From Xanthostigma xanthostigma (Eukaryota > Arthropoda > Insecta > Raphidioptera > Raphidiidae): a stretch of DNA of 64,000 bases. Positions 16,574 to 60,300 of the stretch are shown one piece after another (within the stretch, counting starts at the first letter, position 1; the number at the start of each line of letters is the position of its first letter). Location of the stretch: contig OY754468.1 in the NCBI GenBank assembly GCA_963575645.1, positions 11,036,001 through 11,100,000 on the forward strand. The letters run 5' to 3'. The position numbers were made by a program, and so were the translations under genes. The notes under the pieces were generated by a model. That model was not told where the DNA came from, made no database searches, and saw only the letters and a list, made by a program, of their open reading frames with translations.

Positions 16574-16854
16574 CATTATTAACGTCCAATATTATTCAAT
16601 TATAAGATTTATTACGGGTATGTGGACAAATTTAACACGTTAAATGATTGTAAATTTGCAACGTTTCGTATTTTTATTAATACATCATCAGGCAACTGAA
16701 ACAATTACAATGAAACATAGTATATAATAATATACTATGTTTCATTGTAATTGTTTCAGTTGCCTGATGATGTATTAATAAAAATACGAAACGTTGCAAA
16801 TTTACAATCATTTAACGTGTTAAATTTGTCCACATACCCGTAATAAATCTTATA
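16574..16854. mobile_element. PLE-like double-ended insertion, 281 bp
   Basis: Flanked by a 17-bp direct duplication ATTATAATTTTATTATT (16557-16573, 16855-16871). Inside is a nearly perfect palindrome (16608-16852): two divergent copies of one end sequence, each with the hammerhead-like core (minus 16661-16691, plus 16764-16794). About 30 extra bases lie only at the left end. Long variable-length duplications indicate retrotransposition, not cut-and-paste. Confidence 0.75.
16764..16794 (+). ncRNA. hammerhead-like core motif (copy b; mirror copy at 16661-16691)
   Basis: CTGATGA, T, hairpin GTATT-AATAAA-AATAC, GAAACG. The stem is 5 bp, fully paired. Confidence 0.45.
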
Positions 16855-16871
16855 ATTATAATTTTATTATT

Positions 16872-17970
16872 ATAAGTTTTGTAGTATCGTATTTTACCAA
16901 TAACAGAAAGTGAGATAGATAACTGCAGCTTTTACTTGCGTATTAATATTTTTTTTAATTTCTCTTTGCATCCAATATATAAAACACAAGCGTAGCTGTA
17001 GGGGGAGGCGGGTGTAAATTGTCATCAGACATTCCCTAAAAATTTGGATTAACAATAAAAAAATATTATTCTCAACAAAATCTGATCAGACAGACCCTCA
17101 ACATAGCCTAGTCAAGAAGTGAGTCTCATAAGAAAAATACATTCAAGTGTTCAAAAAATATGAGCAATAGCTTTGTCGATTCGGAAAAATATTCCCAAAA
17201 AGGCTATTTTTTTTTTATTTTTCTCGCCGATAATAATTGCATTTGTTATTGACAAAAAAAAAGAAAAAAACCCCTCAGATTTTTGGCAATTACTCAAAAA
17301 CTATAAGCGATAGCGGGAATTGAAAAAACGATTCTTAAAGAGGAGAAAATTTCCAATAATAAAGTCCCACTCCTGGAACTCTATCTCTATTAATTATTTA
17401 TAGTTTTAATTTGACGTTGAAATTAGGGTTCCGTGCGTAACGCCCTGTTGAGGGAGTACAACACAAAATAATTTTTTTATAGTATATAACAATTTAAAAG
17501 TTTGAATAAATTACGGTGATCTTAACACTTGTAAGAATAAAGTTCTGTTGAAATTTTCTTTTTTTTATTTTACTCGGAACTCGGAATCCACTCACGACTG
17601 ACAACATCGAAACACAAAATCGGATCGAATCGAGAGAAATACTGATTCAATGTAGGTTCTTTACGCGAATCGGTAAAATACGAAACATGGAGACTTAAAG
17701 TTATAAATTTAAATGTTTCATTATTGTACATGTTATGTAATAATTTATTCTGTTTATTATAAATAAAAAAAAGTAGTCGAGTTAAGTGGTCGGGAAACGG
17801 TAGCTTTTATCCAACAACATATAAAACGAAGAACGCGTCTGAGTTTATTTCAAAACTTCGTATTTTCACCCTATTAATAATATCTGCTGGTTTTTAATAC
17901 ACATATTATTCAAGAATGTCTAGTAAGTATTGTATATTAGAATTGTTTTTTTATTATGGGGTAGTTTTTA
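16872..17970. other. intronic AT-rich stretch
   Basis: No gene or repeat recognised. Confidence 0.5.
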
Positions 17971-17972
17971 TA

Positions 17973-18545
17973 CAGTATGTAAACACGTAAGGTGCACATA
18001 GGGAAATTAACATTGGGAAAAAATGACTAGATCAGAGTGAGCCTTGAAATCTTGTTTTTCAATTTGACAGATAATTTTCTTTTGCAAAATGAATGTGTAT
18101 ACTACCGAAGAAAACATTCAAATGATTACAACATAATCGGACTTTTTTTATTAATGGGACATTAAATTCCCAAAAATACTTAAATATGGTGCGAGATCAA
18201 ATATCTCCACCTATTCGTGCTGAACCTAAAGACGTTGGGTCACTGATTTACCAACGCGCATACGTCATACCAGTCAGACAATTTTTGAATGAAATGTTTC
18301 CAAACAAATGGAGTTGTTTTTTTGTTTTATTTTTGTACAAAAAAATTAAAATAATGATTTATAACATCTTTTTATTATTAAAAAAGCTAAGTAAAATAAA
18401 AATAAATCAAAATAAAATAGAAATCCTCAAGATTACCACGATAATTCAGTAGTAATAACAATTAATGCAGTCATGGCTAACTTTGATCCAAGTATTTTTT
18501 TCCAATGCTAATTTCCCTATGTGCACCTTACGCGTTTGCATACTG
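17973..18545 (+). mobile_element. Tc1/mariner element with decayed transposase
   Basis: Ends CAGTATGTAAACACGTAAGG and the inverse CCTTACGCGTTTGCATACTG, with TA on both sides (17971-17972, 18546-18547). An internal plus-strand fragment around 18186-18310 reads ...VIPVRQFLNEMFPNKW, resembling the PVRxxLNxxFPxRW stretch before the third catalytic acid of mariner-type DDE transposases. The rest of the transposase is missing or frameshifted. Confidence 0.75.
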
Positions 18546-18954
18546 TATATAAAAATTGCAGTGTATAAATTTAAATGTTTAAACATAAAATATTCAACGA
18601 CGTATGTTTCGAGTCAGAAATAAAAAACAAATAATATAAATATACAAAAATAAAAACAAATAATACTTTCGAAAGTGTCTAGCTCGTGAATTTTGCTAAA
18701 AAATTATAATTTTAATTGCAACAGGAAATAGTCGGTTTTGTTGAAAGTAGATTTCTGAAAAAAGCATCGTTTTTCATCTACCATTCAGTAATCATATTTA
18801 ATAAGGTGTTGGAATTAAGATCACCCCGAAAAAAATAAGCTTCTAATTGTGAACTTTGTATTTAGAAGATTCCAGACACTTTCTAGCACTTAGTGCTTTC
18901 CTTGATCCGTCTCTAGAACATCACTATTCAAAAAGTTTAATAAGTGTATGAATA

Positions 18955-19125
18955 CAGTAGAACCTCGATTATACGAGCTATTGTGGATCGATTCTATCTC
19001 GAATAATCGACAAACTTTGATTAATATTCATTAAAATATTTGTCAAGCATTAAAAGACAATCACGTTGCTCATATAACCTGAGGGCTCACACGCCCGAAG
19101 GCTCCTGTTAATTCGGGTTCTACTG
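18955..19125. mobile_element. pogo/Tigger-type MITE, 171 bp
   Basis: Ends CAGTAGAACCTCGATTA and the inverse AATTCGGGTTCTACTG, with TA on both sides (18953-18954, 19126-19127). Confidence 0.85.
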
Positions 19126-19481
19126 TAATATTAAAAAAAATTCCGTCGAATAAATAGCTAACTATAAATGTGTAATTCAAAATAAATAGATTTTAAACAT
19201 GAAAATATAGTATTTCATATGGAGTCATGGACAAGTCCAATGTGTTCTAGTTTTTTATTAGAATTATTTTTAAATTAAATGAATAACTTTAAAATACAAG
19301 TGATTTATAAATTCACCAAGAAACTTTGACAAATTAAAGCTCATTTCGGTGGGGACTTTTGATATTTTATTTGTAATAGTGTAATTAAGACCTGTGCCTA
19401 TTTTCAGCTTTATGCTAATTATAGTAAATTTAAATGTTTATTTTAACTGGACTAAATGGACCACTTTACTAAACTATAAAG

Positions 19482-20024
19482 CAGTGATTCCCAAAGTGGT
19501 CTATATCGACTCCCAGGGGTCGACGACAACTTACAAGGGGTCCATGTCAGCGAGAAAAAAAATTGGGGGTCCATGAAATGAAAATGGGGGTCAACGATAG
19601 TGAATCTCCTAACAAAAAAAAAAAAAAAAACAAACTGGACATCGTTAACCAAAGAGATTTAAGATTAAATCTAACTAAATTGATGCCAAATGTTGAAAAT
19701 TTATTATTTAAGCATCAGGTTCATCCTTTACACTAAAAGCATTTATTTTTTTCTTAGTTATTTTATGTAACAGAAAGTAAATTTTAATTTGATTCGTTTA
19801 ATTTGAATCTAATTAATAAATGTATAAAACTAAACATATCACACTACATTTCACTACCGTTATAAATTTAAATCGTTCAAAGTGAGAAGCACTATACCGG
19901 TTGTCAAAAATACATTTGAAATTAATGAATTTGAAAAAAATCAATATCAGATAAGCAGGGGGTCTACCCAAAACCGAAAAACATGGCTAGTGGTCTACGA
20001 GACAAAAAAGTTTGGGAACCTCTG
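19482..20024. mobile_element. hAT non-autonomous element
   Basis: Ends CAGTGATTCCCAAAGTGG and the inverse AAAGTTTGGGAACCTCTG. Exact 8-bp duplication CTATAAAG (19474-19481, 20025-20032). 543 bp, no transposase. Confidence 0.93.
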
Positions 20025-20032
20025 CTATAAAG

Positions 20033-21258
20033 TATCAAAAAATGATTTATGAAAGATGTGAAGTGACTCGGACAGTTTTTACACAGTTTACAAATAGGAA
20101 TAAAAAAACGGACACAAGCATTCTAGACTAGGATTTTACTAGCATTCATTTTTGGGATAATATTTACACGATGATTTTCATTCTAAACGATTTTTCCATT
20201 TAGCCACTACAAACAATGACGTCACAACCCAATAAATATGTTTTTGTAGGATATTTACATTTTAAACGAATTTCATAGAAAATTGAAAACAGTTATTTCG
20301 ACGATTACTTTAGTAAATATATACATATCAAAAGACAAAACTGTGCCCTAGAAATAATGAACATACACCACGCAACACAAAATAAAACTACTAAAACATT
20401 GAATATATCGTTTAGCAATTTTTACTCAGATTCATTTTAAATATAACAGGCGTTGTAAAATATTCAACTAAATTTGTACCACGACACTCGCAAAAATAAT
20501 AGTAGTTTATAGAACGTGAATGCACTTATTATACACGAGTTGTGATAGAGAAAAAAAACGTGCGATCGGCGAGTTATAACAGTCACACGAGTCAACAGCA
20601 TTAAGTTCGAGTTACGTACCACATCTTTTGCACGTACCTACTATAAAATAGCTGATTTTCACATCATAATAAGTATAATATTTTTGACAGTTGCAGTCAT
20701 ATTTGTAATAAATTTGGGTTACGACTTGGCTACGACTGCCTCGCTATTTCTGGTCCTCTTATAGTGTTAAAATGGTCACTTTTGAAAACGACTATTGGAA
20801 TGGTAAGACAGCATTTATTTTAGTGTTACACAAACCATTATACGCCCCGCTATGCAGGGCATGAAAAGCAGCTATTTTTAGAAGGTCGTGAAGAAAATAC
20901 TTTCTGCGCATGAGCAACGCTAATGCTTGGTTTCTAATACGACTTTGAACGCTAAAACTACTTTTTTTTTGGCACTGAATTATCACTGAAACCATTGTGT
21001 TTAGTGTTGGAAGTACTAAAAATCGAAATTTCTGTAAATTGTTTCCATAATTTATTTCTTTCCTTGTGCAATTCTGTGTGGTCAATTTTAGTATATACAG
21101 TACTGCCAATTTGTTGCCCCTTTTTAACAAAAATATTACATAATTACGTAAGCTAATGCGAGACAAAAATTTAACAGCGCTGTAAATATGATTCAATGAC
21201 CATAAACAGAAGAATAGCACCATTAGCTTGAGCTTAAGAATGGCTGAGAGGTTGTTTA
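20033..21258. other. intronic stretch without recognised feature
   Basis: One 143-codon minus ORF (20792-21223) has no recognisable domain and is biased to hydrophobic residues; regarded as chance. Confidence 0.4.
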
Positions 21259-21865: not shown

Positions 21866-22459
21866 ATATTGCAAACCCTTAGTTATTCAGGTTTTCATCT
21901 GAGAGCTAATATAAAGTTTCATTAGTTCTTAAAATAGAACCAAGGAACTAGGGGTTTGTAAACGAAATGTAATAACAGCACCAAGGAAGTTTTCAGATTA
22001 TTCAAAATAACAAATCGAAGTCATGAATTGGTTCAAGAAAGCATAACAACAATAATGTTTTTTAACTACTAATTATAATAGTATTTATTGTAGATTGTGG
22101 ACACTCAATAGCTGCTAATATTTGCTGAAAAATGTTCAGAAGGCAGTACAGAATTGGTCGTCTATTAATTCTGGTCAGTATGTTTGTTTTTCAGGTACAG
22201 AAAGTCTGCCTTAGTGTCGATTAAAAGTACCATTATCTCCAACCACTTTGAAGCTCGTACCATCAATCGAGCATTCAAAATCGAAATCGATATATTCAAC
22301 ACTTTAAAAAAAAACGACGATGCAATGAAGGAACAACTAAAGACATTTAAAAAAACGACAAAAAAAGACAGAGATAATGCAAGCGACAACCAAAAAAAAA
22401 ATGACAATTAGTTACAAGAGAAAAAATAAACAGTTAAGATTTATATAAACACAGCGAAA

Positions 22460-22500
22460 GAAAGAAAAAAAGAAGAGACAGAAAGAGAGAGAGAGAGATT
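22460..22500. repeat. GA/CT microsatellite just downstream of the finger 3-4 exon donor
   Basis: GA-rich on the plus strand, a CT tract in the mbl transcript, starting about 20 nt after the donor at 22521. Its position matches the tract after the next exon. Confidence 0.85.
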
Positions 22501-22521
22501 TGGCGAGACTGCGTAGCATAC

Positions 22522-22737
22522 CGCGCTAGCCCGAGACTGTGCGGCCTTGATATGGGCTTGGAGGTGCAGAGGGGGATGGAAATAGCGGCAGGGGTCGCGG
22601 TTGCAGCGGCCCTTGACTGCGTCCATGCAGACCGTGACGGTGCCGTCCTCGTTTGCCGTCACAGTGTCGGCGGGATGAGCAAAGCGGCACTCGGGCTCTG
22701 CGCGCTTGCACGCCCCGCGCTGGTACTCGCGGCACAC
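22522..22737 (-). CDS. mbl: muscleblind exon: second zinc-finger pair (72 codons)
   Basis: Internal mbl exon of 216 nt, phase 0 at both ends. The acceptor is CTGCTATAG before GTG TGC CGC, and the donor is GCG before GTATGC. It encodes complete fingers 3 and 4. Finger 3 uses C2, C10, C17, H21 (C-x7-C-x6-C-x3-H). Finger 4 uses C37, C45, C50, H54 (C-x7-C-x4-C-x3-H). The two fingers are separated by [12 protein letters not shown]. The conserved tail [11 protein letters not shown] follows. These fingers bind YGCY-type RNA. In Drosophila the second finger pair is encoded only in some transcripts, so this exon is likely optional here too (inference). It is strikingly GC-rich beside its AT-rich introns. 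A CT tract begins about 20 nt after the donor on the transcribed strand, and a degenerate tandem repeat lies 0.3-1.3 kb upstream. Confidence 0.95.
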
Positions 22738-24020: not shown

Positions 24021-24024
24021 TCAG

Positions 24025-25270: not shown

Positions 25271-25273
25271 AAG

Positions 25274-26527: not shown

Positions 26528-26529
26528 CA

Positions 26530-28098: not shown

Positions 28099-28099
28099 A

Positions 28100-33754: not shown

Positions 33755-34134
33755 ATAACCTCGGAATGAAACTGAATGTTTGTATAAACCTTTATTTTGG
33801 CATTCTAAATGTTATCTCAAAAGTCTCATAAGGTCACGTGTGAGCGTTCTTAGATATTCAAGGTCAAAGGTCGCGAAAATCAGTTTTTGGGAAATATCTC
33901 GTTTCCTTTGCCTCAAATCGTATTTGCATTTATAATAAAAGTTGTAGAGTATAAAATTCTCTACAAATTTCGTGTTAAACAATTTTAACCGTTTTTGAGA
34001 TAGAGCGCGAAGAGTGTGGAGCCAAACATGCCAAGGTCAATCGCGAATCCCAGTCCATAGTCTGGTTTTTTAACTTAATTATTATTAGTAACCTAACATT
34101 ATATTTATAATTATAATTTAATAATCATAATAAT

Positions 34135-34414
34135 GTCTTCAGTATAAAGTAATGTTGATCCAATAGAATGTTAAGATGAAGGAAGGTTTTGGTTGAGGAT
34201 CATAAAATAAGCTTTACCAGTGTTTCGCTAGTGGCCAACGTTTCGAAAAATTTATTTTCATCTTCAGGGCCTATGAACATGTATATAATTTAGAACATAT
34301 TGTATCACAATTTTAATGTAAAAAGAAACCATGCTCAAAAGAGAAGTTTTTTGCCAATAGCGAAATACTGGTAAAGCTTATTTTATGATCCTCAACCAAA
34401 ACCTTCCTTTATCT
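34135..34414. mobile_element. PLE-like double-ended insertion, 280 bp
   Basis: Flanked by a 13-bp duplication TAATCATAATAAT (34122-34134, 34415-34427). Inverted arms of about 60 bp: AGGAAGGTTTTGGTTGAGGA and its inverse. The hammerhead-like core is on the minus strand at 34237-34267. About 40 extra bases sit only at the left end, as in the 16.6 kb copy. Confidence 0.75.
34237..34267 (-). ncRNA. hammerhead-like core motif (copy c)
   Basis: CTGAAGA, T, hairpin GAAAA-TAAAT-TTTTC, GAAACG. Confidence 0.45.
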
Positions 34415-35356
34415 TAATCATAATAATAATATTTATTAGTACAGATTAGTGCACTAAAAGGCGAGGTTCAGCCACAGGCTGCTTTACAACCTAACCCTTA
34501 ACCCTTTATATGGATTGGAATTCGCGATTGATATTGTGCTATGGCATGTTGGGCTATCTCAAAAACGGTTATATGTATAGAAAATTGGTTAAGACGAAAT
34601 TTGTAGAGAACCTTATACTCTATAACTTTTATAGTAATTGAAAATACGATTTTAGGTAAAGGAAACGAGATATTTCCAAAAAAAATGATTTTCGCAATCT
34701 TTGACCTTGAATATCTAAGGACGCTCACACGTGCCCTTATAAGACAACATTAAGAATGTTAAAATAAAGGTTTATACAAATATTCAGCTTACTCCGAAGT
34801 GAAACTCTAAAGTGACTGGACTAACAGTATACCTACACCAAATATAATTGGTCGATGTATGAAAATATATATATATTTTTTAAAAATTTTGGAGCCTTTT
34901 GGAATAGAAATCTCGCGACATTTGTATGCCAATTTTTAAAGATTTGTTAATTGGTTATTCAATTAATGTATGGTAAAGTATGTTGAAAAAAAAATGACTC
35001 ATAGTGTAATGGAAAGAATATGACACATAAAAAATAAAGAAGAAAATAAAATTGAATAAAAATGTTGTGTGTAAATGGTCTAACTGTATGTACGCAATGT
35101 GTGGTTTTTTTTAAAGAAAATTAAAATTTATTAATTATCCTGTTAATATTTTTAATTTAGAATGTGCGGGTTAATTTTCAAAATTAGATTAAAAAAATGC
35201 CAATAAGTAAAATTATTGTTTGACAGTGGATGAAAAATAATTTTTTGTTTGATTATGAAAACTTATATAGATAATTATACAGACAGTTCGAGAAAATGTA
35301 AATTGGTCGAGAAAAAAATAATAGCGATTATATATATATAATTCTACATTACATAC

Positions 35357-36285: not shown

Positions 36286-36826
36286 TAAACATATTTTTAT
36301 TTATAATTACAAAGAAAAATCACTATGTTTGTAGCAGTTAACCGACAAAATTCTAAAACGTAATATTATGTTACCGGTCAAACCCGATTTCAAGACAAAC
36401 TAGTTTTCCCTACAGGCTAAACTAGTTATGTCTATATGCGATAGGATAAACCGGTATAGCCTAGGCCAAACCAGTTCTAGGTTGATCTAGTTTAACCTAG
36501 TATGAATATGTACACTCCAGATATGTATGTTTGTCTCTTTTGAAGCGGTGGAGCGTAACGCCTCACCAATTGATTTTACTACTCACAAAATTTACGTACC
36601 GGGCGTTATAACTCAAAATCGTTTCTTAAGGAGTAAACTCCAAAAATTCGGGGCGTGTAAATTATTTTAAAAATCACTCAATCAACGAGCAGCAAAAAAA
36701 ACCATGAAATTTCTTGTATTACACATTCCTTTGGGCGGCGGCCACGGTACAGAAAATGTCCAATAACTGTGACATAAAAACTAAATACTAAGAATAAATA
36801 TGTATATAATATTGTGTTTCTCTTAC

Positions 36827-36997
36827 CACTGTGGGCACTTGTCCAGGCACCAATGGTTGTCCGGGGGTCAGCCCCATTTGTTGCATAAGCGCATTCTTTA
36901 ACGCTAAATGATTACGGCCGTTAATTAGGAGTTGGTCTTTCAAATGCTGCGGCGGATGGAAGTATTTGCACGGTGGCGTTTCACGATTACACCGGCC
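36827..36997 (-). CDS. mbl: muscleblind exon: end of zinc finger 2 and linker (57 codons)
   Basis: Internal exon of the muscleblind/MBNL family of CCCH zinc-finger RNA-binding proteins, which control alternative splicing, RNA localisation and stability. On the minus strand a TTTGTTTCAG acceptor precedes GGC CGG TGT, and the exon ends GTG before GTAAGA. It is 171 nt long with phase 0 at both ends. The product starts [20 protein letters not shown]. Cys3, Cys10 and His14 are zinc ligands 2-4 of finger 2 (spacing C-x6-C-x3-H); the first ligand must be in the upstream exon. The following [20 protein letters not shown] block is strongly conserved in this family. The codons join without a break to the next exon (PTV then ATNPY). 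The upstream exon with the start codon and finger 1 was not found at higher coordinates. Family assignment is near certain; the exon ends rest on splice consensus and phase. Confidence 0.93.
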
Positions 36998-37272
36998 CTG
37001 AAACAAATCAGAAAAAGACACGTCAGTCAAATCTAGCATATAAATTAGTTTTCTTTTCGACCTGATTTAGGTTCATTTGTATACGCAACTAAAAATTTGA
37101 CTCAACTCTCTTCCAAGTGTCTATTTGACGTAAAACTTTGCAATCGGATGTAGTTTTTGTGACAATAGAAAATGTTTTGTCTATCATAATATCCACACCT
37201 GTTTGTAGACATATTAAATAAATAAATTAAACAAATAACAAGTCAAACAAATGAAAATAAAAAACATTTAAA

Positions 37273-37569: not shown

Positions 37570-38215
37570 TTTTCTTCTATAACGTTTAGAAACATTACCT
37601 ATATTTCACTTATTTCATCGAGTGCTCTACGCTTCTAAACGTTATAGAAGATTAAAGATAAAATAAACGTCCTTCTTTTCTGTAACCCTAAAAAGCGTGG
37701 GGCACTCAGCTTATTTATATTCCATTTAATTCGGCGAGTGCCCCGCGCTTCTAAACGTTATAGAAGGTAAAAGTAAAATAAACGACTTTTCTTTCTATCA
37801 CGTTTGGAAGCACGACGCACTCGCTGAATTAAATGGAATATAAGTAAGCTGAGTGCACCATGCTTTTAAAGATTATAGAAAAAAATGACGTTCATTTTAT
37901 ATTTAATCTTCTATAACGTTTAGAATCCTTGGCCACTTACTTTAAATATATTTCATTTATTTCATCGAGTGCTCCGCGCTTCTAAGCGTTAAAGAAGATT
38001 AAACATAAATAAATAAACGTCAATGTATTAATTATTATTTTTGTTAATATATTTGTCTGAAAAATTGGTCGATAATTTTATTTATTTAAGATTTCTAATC
38101 AGACGTTAATCAAAGATTTGATTAAAGATAAAATTAAAAGCATGAGGTACTCAACTTACTTATATTCGATTTGATTCATCGAGTGCCCCACGCTTTAAAA
38201 ACGTTATAGAAGGGA
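37570..38215. repeat. array of four to five palindromic hairpin units
   Basis: Each unit of about 75-100 bp folds back: outer arms CTTCTATAACGTTTAGAAGC and inverse, inner arms GCACTC/GAGTGC around an AT-rich loop. Units lie near 37575-37650, 37673-37770, 37785-37880, 37905-37998 and (right half only) 38143-38212. Confidence 0.85.
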
Positions 38216-43609: not shown

Positions 43610-44486
43610 TAGTCCAGTCGGTGGAGACAATTTTAAACCAAAAGCTCCAGAAATTCGCAAACAGACTCAAATTTTTTTTATGAGTAGTTTAAAGTGTACT
43701 GATTGAAATAGAAAAAAGTTCATTCGTCTATCGATTTCCCTAAGTCAAAAAAAAAAATTGAAAAATTTTTATTTTCAAAATTCTTGAATATTTTAAGCTT
43801 GGATAAAGATAGAGATAAATAAAAAATACTGCCTTGTAGGGGCCGTTTTTTTCTGTAAAAAAGATATCTTGTACTTTTTTCGTCAGAGCTATAGTTTACC
43901 TGGAAAAAATTCGGAAAGTTAGTAAGTCATCTTGCGTCGGCAAACAAGCAAATAAATCACTTTGCAGAAGCAAGAATCATTAAATTTTACTAAAATGTTT
44001 ATAATACTATTTGTCTAGAAATGCATATTCTAAATATTCCAAATAAAAAATTTAAAAAAAAACTAAATGTTCAAAAAAGAATTCCAAAATTTGCAAAAAA
44101 TTTTCGGAAAATAAAATTTTTTTGTTTTTGGCGTCGGAACCAATTTTTTTAGGTTTTGGGACAATTCTAAAGAAAAAAGGTCTCTTATGATTTTCCTATA
44201 AAATGCATTTTTGAGATATTGCATTTAGAAAGTTCGAAAAAATACGTTTTGGCCAACTTTCGAAATGAAATATCTCAAAAACGGCTCGTTTTAGAAAAAA
44301 GTTGATTAGAACATTTCTTGTTAAGAATAACCCAAAAAACCTAAAAAAAAAAAAATAATTTCGGGACGAAAAATACTATTTTCGAAAATTTTTTTCCGCA
44401 TCGAATTTTACCTGTTTTAATAAATAAAATTATCGACCAATTTTTCAGACAATATATTAACAAAAAAATATATAATTAATACATAA

Positions 44487-44517
44487 ACGTTTCAATCCGG
44501 ATTTGGACCTTCTTCAG
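44487..44517 (-). ncRNA. hammerhead-like core motif (copy d)
   Basis: CTGAAGA, A, hairpin GGTCC-AAATCC-GGATT (two G-U pairs), GAAACG. Confidence 0.45.
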
Positions 44518-45000
44518 AACTGATCTAAAAAAATCTTTCAAAATTATTAATAGCCCGGTCAAATTAGCATAAAAAATAGGGGTACCCTTGCATAAATTCA
44601 CAACAAGCTGAAAATTTACAGGCACGTAAGGGATACCACTCTAATGAAATCCTGAAAAGTCCCCATTGATCCCGTGTGTGCAAAAATTTTTATTCAAGGT
44701 CAAAGGTCACAAAAATGGGTTTTTTGTTTTTTTTAGTCAAACGGTTAGTTTTACGATAAAAATAGCTCAGACTAAAATTGTAAATCAGGTCATTAGCTAC
44801 TAAAATTGTCCTTATAATTTTTTCTCTAAGACCTACCATTTCTGAGAAAAAAGGCCATTCGAAAGTTAGCTGGAGCTGTATTCTCCATAAAATGCACAAT
44901 TTTTCACGACACCTATAAGGTAGTGTACGAGCTACGTTTTTTGTAACGAAGTTTCCCCGGAAAGCATACTCCACGATCTGTTTTAGTGGTAAATCAGGTC

Positions 45001-45621
45001 TTATTGAGCTTCTTCTGCTTCTTCATTTCTACTTCCATAATTATCTTCTTCTCCTTCTTTTTCCTCTGCATCCTCCTGAGTCGATGTAAATTGTTGTAGC
45101 AGCGATACATCATCTGTTTCGTCGTTGATGTTGGTATCTTCTTCTGTTGAAAGTTCGACGTTTGAACACGACTGGCCTTGACAACTGATGCATGTTGTTG
45201 AACAAAATAAGCCCACTTTTTTGCAGCTGCATTTTGAACTACACCCCTTCTTACAATTGCAAAAAATGGTGTTAAGGAGCTTCTCTGGTGCAGGCGGAAG
45301 TAGAGTATGGATTGGCTCCAGTACATTGTCAATTAGCTTCCAACCCCATTCTTCTGGATCCAGTGCATTGCCAAGCCACACTTGAACCTGGTAATACACT
45401 CGATAGAAATGTTGCTGAGCAGAAGCTGAGGTTGGAGGAAGACAATCTAATTGCACACGTTTTTTATTACGTGATCGTTTAGCAAAGGATAAGTAACGAT
45501 ACTTATCAATGCAGGTGATTTTTGCTGGAGCTCCATAGACTGAAAGAAGAAAGCGAATTCCGTGAACTATTAGAGTTTCTGGCGTAGAATTTAAATCTTC
45601 GAACACTTGGGCACATCTCAC
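45001..45621 (-). CDS. TE-borne protein with Tesmin/TSO1-like CXC cysteine cluster, 206 codons
   Basis: The only sizeable conserved-looking ORF in the window besides mbl. Residues about 60-110 contain LPPTSASAQQHFYRVYYQVQ followed by WLG and EEWGW. Residues 121-152 form the cysteine cluster (C121, C123, C127, C131, C133, C140, C144, C147, C152), with CNCKKGCSSKCSCKKVGLFC at its core. The tail from about 158 is acidic (Glu/Asp). CXC domains of Tesmin/TSO1 type bind DNA in other proteins. From memory, this combined module recurs in many predicted insect proteins of TE origin, function unknown. The listed start is a GTG; the frame stays open upstream (LFEKQDLV) to about 45640, where a candidate acceptor AACAG precedes GATTTAGTG, so this is probably a 3' exon rather than a whole gene. 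No frameshift seen. Confidence 0.7.
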   Translation of the reverse strand: MRCAQVFEDLNSTPETLIVHGIRFLLSVYGAPAKITCIDKYRYLSFAKRSRNKKRVQLDCLPPTSASAQQHFYRVYYQVQVWLGNALDPEEWGWKLIDNVLEPIHTLLPPAPEKLLNTIFCNCKKGCSSKCSCKKVGLFCSTTCISCQGQSCSNVELSTEEDTNINDETDDVSLLQQFTSTQEDAEEKEGEEDNYGSRNEEAEEAQ

Positions 45622-45629
45622 TAAATCCT

Positions 45630-46230
45630 GTTTTTCGAATAATCTAATAGAAAGAGCGCTAACCGAGGAAGACTTGTGTATAGAATTTGTAAATATTTTT
45701 TATAAATTTGTTGAACTACGGCGGTGTTTTGTTAAAGACTACATAGTAAAAAACAGAGTCGCTGTCTACATCTGTCTTTTTCTTCGCTTACTTCTTCTAA
45801 ACCACGTTCCGTATTTTGAAACGGTTTTCACTAATAGAAAGAGATGTAAACGAGAATGATTTGTGTATATAATTTGTAAATATTTTTCACAAAATGGTCT
45901 ATCTATATATATATTACATATATAGTTTAGCCATTATGTACAAAATAAAAAACTACAGAGGCAAAATGCGACTTTGTTTTATACTATGTAGTGACGTTGA
46001 TGATGGCAAATTATATACACAAACATTCCTCTTTTATCGCTTTTTCTATTAGTAAGAACCGTTTCAAAATCCGAAACGTAGTTTAGAAGAAGCAAGTGGA
46101 GAAAAAGCGAAAGGCAGAGAGCGACTCTGTTTTTTACTATGTAGTCTTTGACAAAACACCGTCGTAGCTCAGCCATTTTGTAAAAAATATTTACAAATTA
46201 TATACACAAACCTTCCTCGTTTATTATAAA
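45630..46230. repeat. ~185-bp repeat units inside the CXC element
   Basis: Inverted and direct copies of the units at 13039-14300 (shared TCTTTGACAAAACACCGTCG, AAACCTTCCTCGTTTAT, TTTCTATTA). The short ORFs starting MAELRRCF and VELRRCF come from these repeats. Confidence 0.8.
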
Positions 46231-48178
46231 TATATTAGTCACGCAAACTTAAAATTTTACTATATTACGCGTCCAGTAATGTTCAGAGACAGCGTAGTCA
46301 TGCATATTATGGAGAATACAGCTCCAGCCAACTTTCGAATGGCCTTTTTTCTCAGAAATGGTAGATCTTAGAGAAAAAATTATAAGGACAATTTTAGTAG
46401 CTAATGACCTGATTTACAATTTTAGTCTGAGCTATTTTTATCGTAAAACTAACCGTTTGACTAAAAAAAACAAAAAACCCATTTTTGTGACCTTTGACCT
46501 TGAATAAAAATTTTTGCACACACGGGATCAATGGGGACTTTTCAGGATTTCATTAGAGTGGTATCCCTTACGTGCCTGTAAATTTTCAGCTTGTTGTGAA
46601 TTTATGCAAGGCTCAATGTCTATTTTGACCGGGCTATAATGATTATCAAAATAATGAAAAAATAATAACAAACAATTTTTTATTAAGTAGTCATGGAAAA
46701 ATTGGTCGATAATTTTATTTATTGAAGAGTTCTAATCAGACGTTAATCAAAGATTTGTTTACCTGTTTTAATTTCCATTGTATTTTTTACCTAGATACTT
46801 TCTTATCTAGCCACATATCACATTCTATTCCTTGAGTATTTATCTTTGTAATGTAATAGTATGAAATTTTATATTCAACGATATAAAAAGATACAGACGA
46901 AAAACCAAAAAAATGTCTGTTTTCTCTTTATGGATGAAAAATCGTTAATATTAAAAAAAATTGAAAACTTAACAAATTTATACTTAGTGATTCTTAATAC
47001 ACTTAATTATACCTACGATTTAAAAAAATATACATTGAAATCCGTTTAGTTTTTATCGTGTTACAGAGGTTTAAAAATATTTTTTCCAGTGAATTCAAGG
47101 TTCCGAAAAAATTGAAAATAGTAACAAGGGCCGTATGTAATAACGAGATAAGATTTAAGGTCAGGAATTTTTATTTATGAAAAAGAACATCTAAAGAATA
47201 GTTTACCAGGTTCAAAAAAAATTTACGACTTTTCCTTATATTTAAAAAAATTATTGCAACGCTCGATTTTCGATTCAAATATATACCTATCTATACTTGC
47301 ATTTTAATACATGTTATTTTATTACAAAAAAAAAAAAAATTAACTACACCATTGAAAAGTTCAGATTTTCTACTTGAAGATAGGCTATTTGAATTTTTAT
47401 TTTATTACCCTATAAGTATGTAAAATATTATAATTCAATACGCCGGGCACGAAAAAGTAGGTTCTCGCATGGCTAGCCGAGCATCGTGCGCGTAAAATAG
47501 ATACATAGTTTATCGAATTTTTTGCGGGCAAACAATAAGCCGGACGAAAAAAGTATAAGATATCTTTTTTATAGAAAAAAACGTCTTCTATAACGTGGTA
47601 TTTATTTATTTCTTCCTATCTTTTTTACATTTCAAAATATCAAAGAATTTTGAAAATCAAAATGATTTTCAATTTTTTTTTTTTACTTTGGGAAATCGAT
47701 AGACGAATGAACTTTTTTTTATTTCAATCAGTACACTTTAAACTACTCATAAAAAAAATTCAGCCTGTTTGCGAATTTCTGGAGCTTTTTATCTCCACCG
47801 ACTGGACAATATTAGATAGAAGAGATCTTAAACTTTATTTAAAAAAAAATTCAAGGTGTTATGAAATGTATTTTCATAAAAAAAATAGTTTATAACAAAT
47901 GAAGTCTGGCTAGCTTATTAACAAAAATTGTCAGCCAGACCAATTTTTTCAAAAATGGTACATTATTTACTACAAATTGTATAAATTTCAAGCAGGTGTT
48001 TTGGAAAGTAAAATCATGTTTTTTTTTAAATTTCAAAAATTCATAAAAAATAACAATTAACAAATTTTTACTTGTCTGGCGGGCGTAACGTGTTTCTGAC
48101 ATGTTTTTCAGCCATTTTCACTTTATAATTTTGAGGTGTTCTTTGGGGTAACTTTTTGTGTCATGGGAGCTTAAACTA

Positions 48179-49560: not shown

Positions 49561-49617
49561 GTTAAATTACTTGATATGATTTATATTAAGTATTTTCTTA
49601 AAAGTATAGGTTCTTAG

Positions 49618-50995
49618 TAGTGATGTGCCGGATCGTTAAAAATGTATATCCGCGGATACGGATCTGAATACGGATATTTGGTTTCAAGATCCGCGGATAC
49701 GGATCTTAACTTTCTTAGAGTACGCGGCGGTAAATATTGCACATTGACCTTTGGAAAGAGACTATCTGTTATGGGAAAAAGTTATTGACTTTTTTAAGTC
49801 AGATTGTCTCTTTCCAAAGATCGATGTGCAATATCTCATTATAAAGATAGTTTTTAAACGCTTTATATTAGTTTGGGTTGTAACTAACTATGTATGTAAC
49901 GGAATCTTTGAGCATAATTTTCACCAATTTCCCGAAGTCTGATTAATTTGAAACTTTGCATACGTATCAAGGACCGATGACAATGCAATAATTTGATAAC
50001 AGTTTCCCATTATCCTTATTAGGACCCCCAGGATTAATAAATTCTTTTATAGATCCTCAAACTAAAAAGTGAAAAATAAAATATAGTTTAAAAAAAACTA
50101 AAAAACACGCTTTATATCGAACTAAAAAGTAAAAAATAATTTTTTTAAAATAAGCTTAAAACGCGTTGGGCGCTCGATGTACGAAAATGTGGAACAAAGC
50201 GCCCCACGCTTTTTAAGCTTATTTTAAAAAAATTATTTTTTACTTTTTAGTTCGATATAAAGCGTGTTTTTAAACGCTTTATATTAGTTTGGGTTGTAAC
50301 TAACTATGTATGTAACGGAATCTTTGAGCATAATTTTCACCAATTTCCCGAAGTCTGATTAATTTGAAACTTTGCATACGTATCAAGGACCGATGACAAT
50401 GCAATAATTTGATAACAGTTTCCCATTATCCTTATTAGGACCCCCAGGATTAATAAATTCTTTTATAGATCCTCAAACTAAAAAGTGAAAAATAAAATAT
50501 AGTTTAAAAAAAACTAAAAAACACGCTTTATATCGAACTAAAAAGTAAAAAATAATTTTTTTAAAATAAGCTTAAAAAGCGTTGGGCGCTCGATGTACGA
50601 AAATGTGGAACAAAGCGCCCCACGCTTTTTAAGCTTATTTTAAAAAAATTATTTTTTACTTTTTAGTTCGATATAAAGCGTGTTTTTTAGTTTTTTTTAA
50701 ACTATATTTTTTATTAGTACCTTTGAGTTATGTACTATTGGTATAGTACTCACTACAATACATTTTTGCAATATAAAGGTGCCAAATACGATTTTAAGAA
50801 ACAAAAAATAATCTGAATGGAATTTAACAGTTTTTCATTATTACCTAATCACCTATATATATATATATAAAATTTCATCTATGAATTGAAAATTAATAAG
50901 GTAAAAGATCCGTAAAAAACCGCCATAAAACTAACGGATACGGATCTTTCTTCTCCCTCGGATATCCGCGGATACGGATATCCGACACATCACTA
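49618..50995. mobile_element. hAT element with internal 416-bp tandem duplication
   Basis: Ends TAGTGATGTGCCGGAT and inverse ATCCGACACATCACTA. Exact 8-bp duplication GTTCTTAG (49610-49617, 50996-51003). Subterminal stretches are rich in ATCCGCGGATACGGATC, repeated in both orientations. 1378 bp, no transposase. Confidence 0.95.
49861..50692. repeat. two tandem copies of a 416-bp unit
   Basis: Copies 49861-50276 and 50277-50692 look almost identical (one difference noticed, AAAACGCG against AAAAAGCG). Each unit ends in a hairpin whose arms include AAGCTTAAAA and GGGCGCTC/GCGCCCC. Confidence 0.9.
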
Positions 50996-52880: not shown

Positions 52881-53452
52881 ACTACTAGCTATTACCTGTG
52901 CCCGTGACTTCGTTAACTGTATTTGTCAGCATTTTTTTATTTTGAGCAGAATCAGCGGATCCCGAGATATATAAACAAACGTTCTCAAATTCAGATAGGC
53001 ATTAACAGGTATTAAAAATATACAAATTAGTTCCTAAAAAGTTCGGTACTTTTTTTATCAATTACAACGTTTACTTTCGTCGTGGGGTTTTTCAAAATGT
53101 TTTTAGAGATTTTATGCACTAAGAAACATCGCAGATGAATTACAAACCCTTTACAGAAAACCGCATCTGAATTGATCAAGCCGTTTTCGAGATAAATGGC
53201 AACTTTTTTTAATTCTGTAAACAATATATGAAATGTAAAAAATGTTTGATTTCATATTATATTGTTTACAGAATGAATTGGAATTTTTTTAATTAACAAG
53301 AAAAACATTTTTATATGTGTTTGGTCAACTGTTTTAATATAATGAATAGTTTTTACAACAACAATAACATCTTTCAGCTAAGGTAAATAACCTAGAAACT
53401 AATTGTAGATTATTGTTAAACTAAACATTTTTTTAAAATATATTTTCAGTAT

Positions 53453-53482
53453 CTGAAGAAGTTGGAATCACCAGCGAAACGT
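53453..53482 (+). ncRNA. hammerhead-like core motif (copy e)
   Basis: CTGAAGA, A, hairpin GTTGG-AATCA-CCAGC (one G-U pair), GAAACG. It is followed by TACACA, which can pair with TGTGTA about 30 nt downstream. Confidence 0.45.
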
Positions 53483-54060
53483 TATACACAGCTAAATAAG
53501 GTGTTTGATTTGTGTACCTGTCCACTTTCCCGCTATCATTTACCAACATAAATGGCAACATTCTTGTGCACAAACAAACAAACAATATCTCTCACCCTAA
53601 ACGCATATACCTTCTCCGTTCCATCGTGGGTAAAATTACAAATAAAATAAAACATAGTCAAGAGTTTACTAGGACTTTTGGTGTTCAATTAGAAACACCG
53701 AAGTACTTCGCGAAGTTGGTGTATTTATTTTCTAAACACCTTTATATGAATTTATAAACTTATAGAGGTATTTCTTGGTAGACAGAAAGTTTTGCCTCGG
53801 TAAGTGCATCAGTACGTTTTAAGAGAGAAATAGTTAGTGCTTCAAATAATCAATAAAAAAAATAAATCAATAAATATAATCGAGTTAAGGAGGTTGAGGC
53901 GTTAAACGAAGATAGTCTTATGGAAAATATGTCAACCTAGCAAGAAAACTGTAGGTACATTTTAATTTTCTGGTTTCACGTCCATTATATTGATAATTGT
54001 AGATGATAGCGGGACAGTGGACAGGTACAAAAAATCAAACACCTTATTTGGCTTTGTACG

Positions 54061-54090
54061 ACGTTTCGCTGGAGATCCCAGCTTCTTCAG
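54061..54090 (-). ncRNA. hammerhead-like core motif (copy f)
   Basis: CTGAAGA, A, hairpin GCTGG-GATCT-CCAGC (fully paired), GAAACG. It is followed by TACAAA, which can pair with TTTGTA downstream. Confidence 0.45.
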
Positions 54091-54418
54091 ATACTGAAAT
54101 TATATTTTGAAAAAATGTTTAGTTTTACAATATTATATACAAAAGTTTCTAGGTTATATTTTACCTTAGCTGGAAGATGTTATTGTTGTAAAATCTATAC
54201 ATTATATTCAAACGGTTTACCAAACACATATACAAATGTTTTCTTTGTTAATAGAGTAAAAATTGTGATTAATTCTGCAGTAAACAATATAAAAAAAAAT
54301 TTTAACTTTTTTCTCCAAGCAGAACACATGGTTTTGAAAAAAATTTTTTTTGTGATAACAGTTATCATGCAACCAACATAACAGAGTTGAGTTGGGGCGC
54401 GAATATTGAGATTTTGAA

Positions 54419-55374: not shown

Positions 55375-55775
55375 GATTTTATAGTTTAAAGGTCACTAAT
55401 AAAAAGTACCCATGGGCGAATAGCCTAAAAACCAATAGATTTTTAGCTACAGATATGTTTAGCGAGATTTTAGATCTAGGGATATCCATTGAATTCACAA
55501 ACATGTTCCATGTTCCACTTTTGTGCTTTTTTTAGAAATATAAAAATAGTCGAAAACTAGGTAATGTTGAAAGGTGTCATCCTGTATAAAATAATAATCT
55601 CATATTCAGCGCACTCGAAAACATATTTCTAGAGCTTAGGATTTTTTAAGATCGTTGATTCAATGGATATCCCTATATTTAAAATCTCGCTAAAAATATC
55701 TGTAACTAAAAATCTATTGGTTTTTTAGACACTTTTTCTTAGCGACCTTCAAACTATAAAATAAAACCATTTTTG
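55375..55775. mobile_element. foldback MITE, family 1, both ends truncated
   Basis: Matches the interior of the copies at 796 and 25274 but lacks the outermost GCACAAA terminal sequence on both sides. Confidence 0.7.
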
Positions 55776-56288
55776 TTTAATAAATGCTGTTTTCGAGGGC
55801 ATTTCGCGAGTTCAGGCTAATATTACGTATTAAAGAGGGTTATGTTTGTCCTGTGGTCGATATTAAGAAGTGTCAGGCGAGTCTTCAATCTGATTGCATT
55901 TTACTCGACACAACGACGACGAAGACGAGGTAGTGAAGCGCAGTTCAGTGCAGCGAAAGCGGGTAATGAATGTCATACTTTATCGTCGGCAGAGAATAAA
56001 AAGCATTGAGGTGTGAAATAGAGAGCTAGATCAAATATCTAGCAAGCGCATCGAATAGGCATAAAAAGGTTGAGTGACGCGACGAAGTAACGGTTACTCC
56101 AGTAACTGTTACCGGAGAACAGTCCGATCCGAAAATATCACTTAGCGGAAAACGATCGCGTTTCAAAGACATCTGTCAATAAAATTATGTTGTATACAAA
56201 ATAGATATTAAAAAGAAAAAACAGACCAGGTGCGAGTCGGACTCGCGCACCGAGAGTTCCGTACAAACTTGTAAGTATATGTAAATAA
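55776..56288. other. moderately GC-rich stretch without recognised gene
   Basis: Contains CACAACGACGACGAAGACGA and GGTTACTCCAGTAACTG. Could be unique sequence or unrecognised untranslated exon; no evidence either way. Confidence 0.35.
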
Positions 56289-56290
56289 AT

Positions 56291-56602
56291 GTCTGACACC
56301 TCGAACATGTCGAACATATTCGAGGTGTCAGACATTTTAAATGGTTCATGTTATTTGTCAGAGAACATTATTTTCGCGTTTTGGTTGAAGTTTTTTTAAG
56401 CTATCAAATTAGAAAAACAAACAGTATCTATAAATTTTTACATGTCGTTAAAACGACATCTTTCGGAAAATTTAGAGGGAAAACGCCTTAAAATCAAGAA
56501 AAGTCATAAAGGAAATAGGTGTCAGATCAGGCCTAATGAAGCCATATATAAAGTTTGGGGAGAGTATGTGTCAGTAAAATTTTTGCCGACGGGCACTCTG
56601 AC
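56291..56602. mobile_element. long-arm MITE, family 2, left arm deleted
   Basis: Begins at the central palindrome (GTCTGACACCTCGAACATGT) and runs to the right end CGACGGGCACTCTGAC. It abuts a short segment (56230-56275) with TGCGAGTCGGACTCGCGCAC, a common insect repeat motif. Confidence 0.8.
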
Positions 56603-57015
56603 TATAACCGGTTATTTTAAGAAAATAACAGTCGCGTCCATCACCAGGGTAGCAGAAGAGCCGGTCGACCTAGCAGAATCATTGGAGGAAATGAAGTGAG
56701 AACGTCGTCTGGAGGCAGAATGAGATGTAAATTGACAGAAGATAAAAATAAAGTGGAGACGCCGCCACCGCGTCCCGGCGATAACAAGACAAGACTATGA
56801 GATTTCGCACATGTCGTTTTGGTAAAGCGAACACACGTCGGAGCGACGGCGACAGAAGCCCTGAACCGGTTACATAACCCTCCGCACCGTCGCTTGACAC
56901 TACAAATTTGGACCAATGTGCTCCCTGCTACCCTACACACCCGTCGACCCGGCACAAATATGTATCGTCTTCCGTCTCGACTGCCGTCGTTGCTAAGAAA
57001 GCGACGTCTTAAAGC
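56603..57015. other. GC-rich stretch without recognised gene
   Basis: ORFs on both strands (144 codons minus, 87 codons plus) reflect high GC. No domain recognised. Confidence 0.35.
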
Positions 57016-57023
57016 GTTACTAG

Positions 57024-57606
57024 TAGTGATGTGTCCACATGACTCTTTATTGGGAGCTGGCTCCGTGCGCTCCACTCACTAAAAAGAGTCGCTCATAGCG
57101 AATCGTTCAAAGGAGTGACACGAGACAGTATATACTGCACAAGAGTGCAGACTACAGAGGTGTGAACTTTCATCACGCATGCTCAGGAGTCACAGCACAA
57201 TACACACTCTGAGCTCATTTTTTTAATATGATTCTGATTTTATATTATTCGAATTTCGGATAAACTATAAAGTATAATAAAAGCTAAACAACAATAATGT
57301 TTAGTGTTACAATATCTTTGTCAACGACGTCAATGTGAATGGTTTAAGTCACTGTAAGCTTAGTACTATTACACTTACAGTGTGTCATTCAACATTAAAT
57401 AACTCAGCAAAGATAACTTCGTACGTGCAAAATTCACTAGTGTATCTGTGGCATGTGCTGTGTGCGCTCTGTAAACAGTACAGAATAGCTCAGCACAGAG
57501 CAATGGCGCTCGGAGTGAGTCATTCACAAAAAAAAGAGCGACTCGCTCCGTTCCGAGAAAGGAGTCGTTCATTATGAACGACTCGCTCAGGAGCGATACA
57601 TCACTA
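57024..57606. mobile_element. hAT element
   Basis: Ends TAGTGATGTGTCCACATGAC and inverse GAGCGATACATCACTA. Exact 8-bp duplication GTTACTAG (57016-57023, 57607-57614). Subterminal AGAGTCGCTC/GAGCGAGTCG motifs. A truncated inverted copy lies at 38711-39132. Confidence 0.93.
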
Positions 57607-58374
57607 GTTACTAGTATACCAGTGCAAAACTTTTTAGCATGCATCTTCATATGGTTTTAAAACATCGATATTTTGACACAGACCTACGACAATAATTTTA
57701 TTCCTCTTGCAGTAGTTTCCATTTACAGTTATTTTTCTTTTGGTTTAGCTTGATCTATCAAATTGTCTATAAATATTTTTTGGTATACTTTTGTACAAAA
57801 AGTAACATTACCCAAAAACTACACGTCAACGTGTTTTTCATTATAATTATCTAAGAGTAAAATTTTCGAATAAACATTTTTTCCTGTGAGCCGTCAAGGA
57901 GGAAACTTCGTCCGCTGACAGAGCGCCTTTGATAACGGTTATCGGAGTTGTACACGAAACGTCAGGTTGAAATATCAATGGACCACAAGTCCGGAAACCA
58001 GGAAGATTTCGAAATTGAAACGTAGTTTGATTAATATTTACAAAAAAAAAATTACTGATATTTTGCCACTTTTTTGCTACTGACGGCAGCTCTGCCTGTA
58101 CGCTTTCCACCCCCTTTATATACGTTTGTCATATCACTTCGCACTTTGTACTGAATGTATGAATATATCACATACCTACATATTTTGTATTGTACGATAT
58201 TTCTGGGAACAAGGGCAAAGTGCAAATATCTTTCATATAACATTTCGGGCTAATTTTTTTCAAAATAAAATAGCCGCTTTAAAATGGCTATCGAATGTCT
58301 TTACCTAAATGACAATCCAATCTTATCTTTTCAAAATAAAATCACATTTTCAATAAGAAACATTTTATAAAATA

Positions 58375-58579
58375 CTAGCAGCCACCGTTTTTTCGTCGAG
58401 TTTTGTTGCAAAATTGATCTCCACGAAAAGCGCTTTTATTTTCATATACAGCCTATGTCCATTCTGAAGGTCCATTCTAAATATTGGTGAAAACAATTTT
58501 GAAATCGGATGAGTTTTTTCGGAAGTTACCTCCTACATCCAAACTTACAAACTTTACCTCTTTATAATATTATATACGA
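58375..58579 (-). mobile_element. short Helitron
   Basis: Minus-strand copy of the 28100/37273 family: 5' end TCGTATATAATATTATAAAG, 3' end CTAG at 58378-58375. Confidence 0.8.
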
Positions 58580-58786
58580 TACATATTTGAAAAAATGTAG
58601 TTATCTGTTTCAATATTAATTGTTACTTTTTTTTCAAAAAAAAAGCACTCCATCAACACAGTAAAAACTCTATATTTTGACTTCTGTTAAGCTAAATCTT
58701 TTGTGCTAGTCTTAAATAGTTTGCAAAGCAATCTTGTTAATAAATAAGCATTTTTGATTCAAAATTTCTTCTTAAGGGTTCAACAA

Positions 58787-59237
58787 ACTCACTATATATT
58801 ATAAAACAAAGTTTCCCCGCCGCGTCTGCCTGTCTGAACGCGATAAACTCAAAAACTACTAAACGGGTTTTCATACGGTTTTCACCAATGGACGGAGTGA
58901 TTCAAGAGAAAGGTTTATGTGTATAATTCATTAATGTTTTGTGTAAATTGGTTGAAATATGACGACGATTGTTGAAGATGTCGGAAAAAATCAAGCCGAC
59001 TAGGAGCTATCATCGAAAACGCTTCCTAATCTCTTTGAGATATAACAAAAACAATGTATGGTGGAATTGTTCCTCTTTTATAGGTCTATAAGTTCGCGAC
59101 GGCATATGTCTATCTTTTAAGGACAGCTTACTGTACCCATTTTAATGTTAAGCGCTTTTCGTGAATATTAATTTTGCAAGTCGACGAAAAAAACGGTGGC
59201 AATCTACAATCTCAAGTGAAGCCGGGCCGGGCCGCTA
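58787..59237 (+). mobile_element. Helitron, degraded 3' end
   Basis: Contains CGTCTGCCTGTCTGAACGCG and GGTTGAAATATGACGACGAT, typical of a widespread insect Helitron family. It ends GGGCCGCTAT instead of CTAG. The last ~100 bp match the other Helitron family here (AAACGGTGGCAATC), so it may be a chimera. Confidence 0.65.
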
Positions 59238-59829
59238 TTGAAATTATTTACTTGAGCTCACTATCTTCAGTAATACACTCCTTACTTTATGATGACATCT
59301 ATAGAAAAAACACACATACACACACGCACACATTCATGCATAAGATAAGAAGGGAAAAACCATCACTACGTGAAAGTGGCAAAGAAAAAAGTATCTCATA
59401 CTTAGCTTTCTTGCGCGTGGTGTTGTACATAAATAGCATGTATACCTAAGTATTACGCAATGCAAATACGGGTCTCTTTAAAACTAGTGCCGTGACGAAA
59501 TAACAGTAACAGTTATTTTAGAACTGCATTACATGCAAAAATACTGCATTGCAACCTAGATACAAAAACTGTTGAATAGCAAATAAAAAAAAACAAAAAA
59601 AAAAAATGTGATGGAGGTTGCGATGTTGGCGGTGGGAGAACGGGTCTTTAAAAAATTATAAAATAGAATCAGTATTTTCTTTAATACGACTTTTAATTTA
59701 AATGCATTAAAAGGAAAAAAATAATATTTAATTTAGATACACAATTATAAAAGCGTGTGTCAGGATCCACGCTTTTATCAATATGAATCTATATACACGG
59801 TTTGATTAACGTCTGATAATAATCTTCAA

Positions 59830-60300
59830 AGAAATAAAATGATCGACCAATTTTTCATTGACAAAATATAAAATTGTACTCGTAATTCAATAGATTTATG
59901 ATTTGGGGCTTCTTCAGAATTGAGAGTTTTTTTATAAAAGCTCAAATTGAATTCTATTAGAAACTAATAATAATAATTCAAATAAATAAAATTATCGACC
60001 AATTCATTTTTATATTTTTCTTCAGAAATATCTAAAAAATATATAAAAATTAATTATATTTTTTAGATATTTCTGAAGAAGATCCAAATCCGGATCGAAA
60101 CGTCATCTTGTGTTATATTGATTTGTATTTTTATTATTTTTTGTCAATATATCGTATGGTCTAAAATTTTAATAATAATAATGTTTATATTTTTGCTCAA
60201 TTTTGAAGAAGCCCCACATCCGGACCTAAACGTAAATCTATTGAATTATAATTTTATATTTAGTCAATATATTGTCTGAAAAATTGGTCGATACTTTTAT
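59830..60300. mobile_element. cluster of PLE-like ends
   Basis: Minus-oriented end at about 59838-59930 (core partly deleted) and plus-oriented ends with cores at 60073-60103 (intact) and 60203-60233 (degenerate). All share AATTGGTCGAT...TTTATTTATT as the outer end. Confidence 0.7.
60073..60103 (+). ncRNA. hammerhead-like core motif (copy g)
   Basis: CTGAAGA, A, hairpin GATCC-AAATCC-GGATC (perfect 5 bp), GAAACG. Same loop as copy d with different stem pairs. Confidence 0.5.

Follow-up and report, generated by a model that had tools for sequence, protein, structure and literature searches.

Penelope-like elements (PLEs) carry hammerhead ribozymes of a reduced type. Cervera and de la Pena 2014 and Lunse et al. 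2017 (via PMC7761336 and PMC7229834) describe them as minimal type I hammerheads in which the non-conserved helix III nucleotides are usually missing, which occur dispersed in animal genomes as well as in the pseudo-long terminal repeats (pLTRs) of the elements and for which cleavage as dimers was proposed, and a review summarizes them as minimal type I motifs without helix III that may cleave as dimers and whose role is unknown. Here, we analyze a stretch of 64,000 nucleotides (the window; C5:11036001-11100000, contig OY754468.1) from the 623-Mb, 28-contig genome of the insect Xanthostigma xanthostigma, in which short insertions with inverted ends bear a motif of this kind. A preliminary reading of the letters alone (hereafter the sequence-only reading) had proposed Penelope-like insertions with hammerhead motifs, and this is the interpretation best supported by our data: the insertions are very probably non-autonomous, 5'-truncated products of several PLE families of the Penelope/Poseidon kind that possess a minimal type I hammerhead. 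The set consists of unusually clear examples of an already-described phenomenon, and not of a new kind of RNA.

Two described elements serve as points of reference. For Poseidon of Anolis carolinensis (PAc), the template RNA of which is printed in the methods of Frangieh et al. 2024 (PMC11167929), that paper reports a ribozyme that needs protein to cleave in vitro, loses activity through mutations of C3 and G8 and is partly restored in the double mutant. The same source describes an enzyme that cleaves and extends both target strands, with reverse transcription starting at two internal positions (the tail being the sequence between them); initiation falls 111-118 nt into the open reading frame (ORF) and the ribozyme cut 26 nt into it, i.e. 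85-92 nt apart. The account of Adineta vaga Penelope in PMC3846280 lists inverted pLTRs, one of which carries a tail of 31 bp, target duplications of 8-10 bp, palindromes at the inverted junctions and foreign sequence between the pLTRs. For such palindromic junctions, self-priming on an antisense template was proposed by Arkhipova et al. 2013.

Core motif and stem II

The search space (364 kb) comprised the window and 300 kb of the same genome, the latter sampled as 30 stretches (given by L-numbers) in an incompletely random manner, as two of them flank the window. Hammerhead numbering is used throughout (C3 = start of CUGANGA; GAAA = 12-15.1; H17 follows GAAACGT), and sites are named by the position of C3. 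The first scans, which looked for CTGANGA, a hairpin and GAAAC and required stem II to pair, recovered exactly eight perfect-core sites in the window (15891-, 16691-, 16764+, 34267-, 44517-, 53453+, 54090- and 60073+), the number that the sequence-only reading had listed. All eight have a single base before stem II; the CUGANGA and GAAA strands are exact in 8/8, exactness being the search criterion. Ten first-order Markov shuffles of the window yielded no perfect-core match, and 0-4 matches when up to one mismatch was allowed.

In a later re-scan of the 364 kb, only the exact core was demanded, at any spacing of 10-30 and irrespective of pairing. It returned 21 sites, in every one of which the core strands lie 16-17 nt apart; stem II has 4-5 of 5 pairs and exactly one inserted base in 20 of them (3 pairs in the remaining one). 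Three shuffled 364-kb copies contained 3, 2 and 0 exact-core sites, none comparably paired. We stress that simply matching the pattern with two mismatches does not reach significance on its own (5 found vs. 2.49 expected, a number equaled by 13/100 shuffles), and that it is the exact core combined with pairing that distinguishes the sites.

Two features that had been regarded as unusual in the sequence-only reading turned out to be ordinary. The A of CTGAAGA occupies position 7, which is free in the consensus CUGAnGA, and the extra base before stem II is also present in the printed PAc ribozyme, which resembles the motif in its CUGAGGA, one inserted U, a stem II opening with G-C, GAAACGUC and a stem I of 3 bp with identical register (PMC11167929). 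There, stem II has 6 bp and forms only when the inserted base is skipped. Because the PAc ribozyme has the same layout, neither the inserted base nor the absence of stem III constitutes an anomaly. Within the core, U4 is replaced by C in one family (L009 7305 and L028 1623).

Stem I and covariation

Stem I, which played no part in site selection, pairs best when H17 is placed directly after GAAACGT, so that the bases before C3 face those after H17, e.g. TTGC/GCAA (16764), GTAT/ATAC (53453), GTAT/GTAC (54090) and GGCC/GGCC (34267). The register was evaluated on 13 sites, a set that omits palindromic duplicates, two copies in L004 and six one-mismatch matches judged to be due to chance (L001, L005 7553, two in L008, L014 and L019). 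The hammerhead register produced 38/52 pairs; shifting the strands gave 16-20 pairs in five cases and 30 in a sixth (+4), and none of 10,000 permutations of strands between sites reached 38. Stem I is weak at 60073, 44517, L005 and L011 (2 of 4 pairs each) and at 15891 (1 of 4).

We further aligned 17 distinct sites (all from the scans that required stem II) with MAFFT; as a gap fell within stem II, three of its five pairs were counted, and in these columns 100% of the cells are paired. For stem I the figure is 73.5% over four columns, with double changes in all four. Both stems together have 84.9% of cells paired, vs. 29-44% in all six slides of the partner by 1-3 columns, and cells changed on both sides number 34, vs. 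11.0 in shuffles. The stem I register and the covariation of both stems thus define the motif as having the hammerhead layout: stem I, CUGANGA, stem II, GAAA and U-H.

These results bear out the earlier remark that the hairpins differ between families and still pair, since divergent families keep pairing by compensatory change. For the same reason decay, another of its suggestions, fails for the class as a whole and applies to single copies only (15891, 60195 and 59889). The departures from the hammerhead that the sequence-only reading had claimed disappear; it had overlooked stem I, which covaries in register. It was prepared to be refuted if compensatory changes were not in excess or if spacing were random, and neither was what the 364-kb sample contained. 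Its statement that a stem III with a cleavable UH is lacking was half right. A stem III hairpin, even one of 2 bp, can be drawn by eye at only two of the eight window sites (15891 and 54090), but the U16.1-H17 step is there: GAAACGT-H is directly present in 6/7 non-duplicate window sites (15891 has G), and U16.1-H17 is kept together with the core in 14/17 aligned sites. The ACGU of the motif is self-complementary. Minimum free energy folds of monomers contain stem I and stem II at some sites (34267 and 16764) and lack them at most; dimer folding energies were uninformative.

Anatomy of the insertions

Three insertions of the window, A, B and C, each consist of outward-facing inverted ends with extra bases at one end. 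Insertion A (16574-16853, tail on the left) has 128-bp arms that are 100% complementary and 24 extra bases on the left; it lies between the two copies of an 18-bp repeat made up of A+T only (16556-16573 and 16854-16871). Its motifs occupy 16652-16699 in the left arm (minus strand; core scan, 39.1 bits with the custom model R1) and 16756-16803 in the right arm (plus strand; core scan, R1 and stem I TTGC/GCAA), with predicted cleavage after 16795. Insertion B (34135-34414, tail on the left, 36 extra bases) is flanked by 13-bp copies at 34122-34134 and 34415-34427 and bears a minus-strand motif at 34229-34275 (stem I GGCC/GGCC; core scan, R1 47.4 bits).

Insertion C had been described as one unit (44421-46757); instead, its Penelope ends are apparently separated by a second, nested element that measures ~2.1 kb and has inverted repeats of 311 bp. 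The tailless left arm (44422-44546) holds a minus-strand motif at 44478-44525 (stem I 2 of 4; core scan, R1 44.6 bits), and the right arm (46641-46757) carries the tail (34 extra bases on the right); the boundary with the nested element and the start of the right arm are approximate, by eye. Duplicate copies of 15 bp flank the whole (44407-44421 and 46758-46772). The flanking repeats of A, B and C, measured as maximal exact matches, are therefore present as had been claimed, with lengths of 18, 13 and 15 bp rather than 17, 13 and 14; likewise, the one-sided excess is real in all three and amounts to 24, 36 and 34 bases.

As observations in their own right, the segment 16598-16857 consists of 128-bp perfect inverted arms only 4 nt apart, transcripts of which would form a long hairpin. 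Matches to microRNA families at 16684-16771 score far below the gathering thresholds and were rejected as a consequence of this perfect hairpin. The probable nested element between the arms of C (44547-46640) has repeats (44586-44896 and 46301-46611) that are 99% identical and an ORF of 232 aa (45004-45699, minus strand) with a cysteine-rich CNCKKGCSSKC stretch and no Pfam match.

Flanking repeats of at least 12 bp were found in seven of the 13 inverted insertions surveyed. For the tail count, five of the 13 (L019, L003, L011, L009 and E) were dropped because of short flanking repeats (6-10 bp at best). L028 4943-5426 was included (7 bp in the insertion survey, 13 bp in an unbiased inverted-repeat scan) and L028 1349-1740 was added from the unbiased scan (11-bp repeat, with a 51-nt one-sided extra that exceeds the published 30-40). 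Among the double-ended insertions that face outward and whose duplication reaches 11 bp or more, 9/9 have a single tail (A, B, C, L016, L005, L027 and three from L028). Their one-sided extension measures 24-51 nt, their target duplications vary from 11 to 18 bp and, C apart, they are 151-484 bp long. Considering that the flanks of different insertions have at least 12 bp in common in 3/156 comparisons, one A+T-rich duplication is weak evidence and the whole set is strong. The unbiased scan (repeats of at least 11 bp) also delivered many motif-free structures, which were left uncounted; in several of them the palindromic 'duplications' belong to the inverted repeat itself.

Measured from the predicted cleavage point, tailless arms end 52-87 nt and tailed arms 86-108 nt further on (12 arms, coordinates entered by hand), the same range as the 85-92 nt between cut and start reported for Poseidon. 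The inverted ends, one-sided tail and target duplications are also those of Adineta vaga Penelope as given in PMC3846280; the elements described there bear ORFs, whereas the nine counted here are short (C apart). Similarly, an enzyme is described for Poseidon, whereas the 364 kb searched here by regular expression yielded no convincing enzyme gene (see below).

Distribution of the motif

Among the hammerhead-model searches that had been recommended, those with Rfam models gave nothing in the window (see below) and the custom model R1, run over the 364 kb, returned 33 matches with E values of 1 or below, the 17 training sites being included by construction. The 31 matches at E up to 0.1 form 11 neighbor pairs within 700 bp, vs. 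about 2 expected randomly, and 7 of these pairs are outward, 2 tandem and 2 inward (the outward pair at L002 rests on weak R1 matches). Counting exact sites whose stem II has 5 bp gives 7 for the window and 9 for the 300 kb outside it, making the window ~3.6 times richer. If the latter density were uniform over 623 Mb, the genome would very roughly hold 19,000 such sites.

Outward pairing is not universal. The two family-D motifs at 53445-53491 (plus strand, stem I GTAT/ATAC) and 54052-54098 (minus strand, stem I GTAT/GTAC), both recovered by core scan and R1, face inward (53453+/54090-, 561 bp apart), and the minus-strand motif at 15853-15899 (15891-; R1 34.0 bits), with its G at position 17 and 1 of 4 stem I pairs, is partnerless, isolated and possibly decayed. 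Further members of the family of C are a plus-strand motif at 60065-60112 (stem I 2 of 4; core scan, R1), decayed copies of it at 60195-60242 (plus strand; R1 21.0 bits, E 0.016) and 59889-59925 (minus strand; R1 15.4 bits, E 0.57, a weak match), and a Penelope-like 3' end at 38061-38118 (plus strand) that has the tail and lacks the hammerhead core. In L004:5247-5502 two motif copies lie in direct tandem, each with GAAACGAT replacing GAAACGT.

Origin of the insertions

We propose that the motif is the minimal type I hammerhead of PLEs, located toward the 3' terminus of the segment that is reverse-transcribed. It is composed of a 3-4 bp stem I, CUGANGA, an inserted A or T, a stem II of ~5 bp opening with G-C, and GAAA-C-G-U-H. 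Judging from its letters, stem III would be at most the self-complementary ACGU, so that folding or cleavage may proceed as a dimer or with protein. By analogy with published relatives, the target would be opened on both strands, each of them priming cDNA of the element RNA, and reverse transcription would begin at one of two sites, ~52-87 or 86-108 nt 3' of the predicted cleavage point. Head-to-head joining of the two cDNAs would then leave inverted ends that face outward, together with an 11-18 bp duplication and a tail at one end, the tail presumably being the sequence between the two starts. Both self-priming and two-strand priming could account for the perfect 128-bp arms of A.

Several observations speak against this interpretation. 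U16.1-H17 is missing in 3/17 aligned sites (15891 and the two L004 copies), the fourth stem I pair holds in only 6/17, and pairs altered on both sides show no excess over shuffles across the 17 sites (6 vs. 5.1; 192/500). The inverted structure 53217-54291 (12-bp flanking repeat, 40-nt one-sided extra), which the unbiased scan also delivered, encloses the inward family-D pair and does not fit the outward-end model; since its motifs face inward, it was left out of the nine-insertion count. Rfam hammerhead models had no match in the window even at E 10, and RF00008 alone had none in the genome, although its control also gave no match; an Rfam match is not defining for the PLE hammerhead variant. 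A regular-expression search of the 364 kb for a reverse transcriptase or GIY-YIG gene gave nothing convincing (two matches, both in stop-broken frames, were dismissed by eye). Lastly, no Poseidon-like ORF start is found at the inserted base. The ORF start codon of the printed PAc RNA has the inserted U as its middle base, whereas here the T-type families spell an ATG whose frame, as read from the sequence, runs into a stop at codon 3-16 and the A-type families spell AAG. As coding alone is insufficient to account for it, the start codon was rejected as an explanation, and the inserted base seems to be kept for a non-coding reason.

Traces of ribozyme activity in vivo were sought in the arm ends. 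In B, no more than about 1-2 nt separate the start of the right arm from the predicted cleavage position (by eye), and in L016:4165-4315, a double-ended insertion of 151 bp, the arms meet exactly at the predicted cleavage point, TGGCCA. The truncated arms of family C are scattered by eye from ~5 nt upstream to 40 nt downstream of that site. Run-off at the cleavage site is not supported as a rule, because TGGCCA is a native palindrome able to join arms and the family-C ends are scattered.

This bears on a reading that is compatible with PLE insertion, in which the motif now serves as a binding or dimerization site for a retroelement protein and self-cleavage has become lost or irrelevant. We consider it possible, if rather unlikely. 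Its strengths are that, within the experiments presented in PMC11167929, mutation of the Poseidon ribozyme leaves insertion in vitro normal and reads ending at the cleavage site are absent, that the truncation points here are scattered, with arms ending at the predicted cleavage position in two insertions only (B and L016, the latter end coinciding with the palindrome), and that a viroid hammerhead reportedly becomes weaker with an additional nucleotide in its core. The retention of U16.1-H17 with the core in most aligned sites would be needless for a pure binding site and argues the other way. A related and more specific idea, which we regard as doubtful, is that the self-complementary ACGU dimerizes two template RNAs in a dimeric particle and couples their asymmetric copying, one from the distal start (tail) and one from the proximal start (no tail), the hammerhead being mainly an RNA-dimer device and cleavage secondary. 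If true, it would explain why there is exactly one tail per insertion (9/9, at most 0.2% under independent end choice).

Metazoan retrozymes, tandem repeats that lack autonomy, bear canonical type I hammerheads and move via circular RNA, share with the insertions the type I hammerhead and the lack of autonomy, and the two tandem pairs (L004 and 60065/60195) would suit them; we nonetheless find a retrozyme origin improbable, as the tandem arrangement and canonical hammerhead described for retrozymes contrast with 7/11 outward and 2/11 tandem pairs here, no proper stem III is present and the ends bear Penelope tails. Foldback or MITE-like (miniature inverted-repeat transposable element) DNA transposons, in which a transposase would move terminal inverted repeats and the paired motif would be its site, can claim the short inverted-repeat insertions with flanking duplications and the other, motif-free inverted repeats of the sample, but are hardly credible given duplications that vary from 11 to 18 bp, ends that differ by a 24-51 nt tail, arms that end at differing internal points between copies (by eye) and a covarying hairpin with hammerhead core letters for which a terminal repeat has no evident role.

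Read as truncated PLE products, the insertions of this genome allow both ends, the tail and the ribozyme to be examined together in many small copies of several families. Two questions thereby become countable: whether each double-ended insertion obeys a one-tail rule, and whether cDNA ends cluster at the ribozyme cleavage site.

Neighboring features

CCCH zinc-finger exons are encoded on the minus strand at 22444-22737 and 36791-37066 (Pfam zf-CCCH_10, E 6e-25 and 3e-14, respectively); they look like exons of muscleblind, and the insertions may lie in introns of this zf-CCCH_10 gene. A near-perfect inverted repeat spans 12391-14951 (arms of 1191 nt, 99% identical, 179 nt apart) and has repeats in common with 45645-46225. 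Finally, two 300-nt direct repeats, 99% identical and spaced by 416 nt, are located at 49840-50555.

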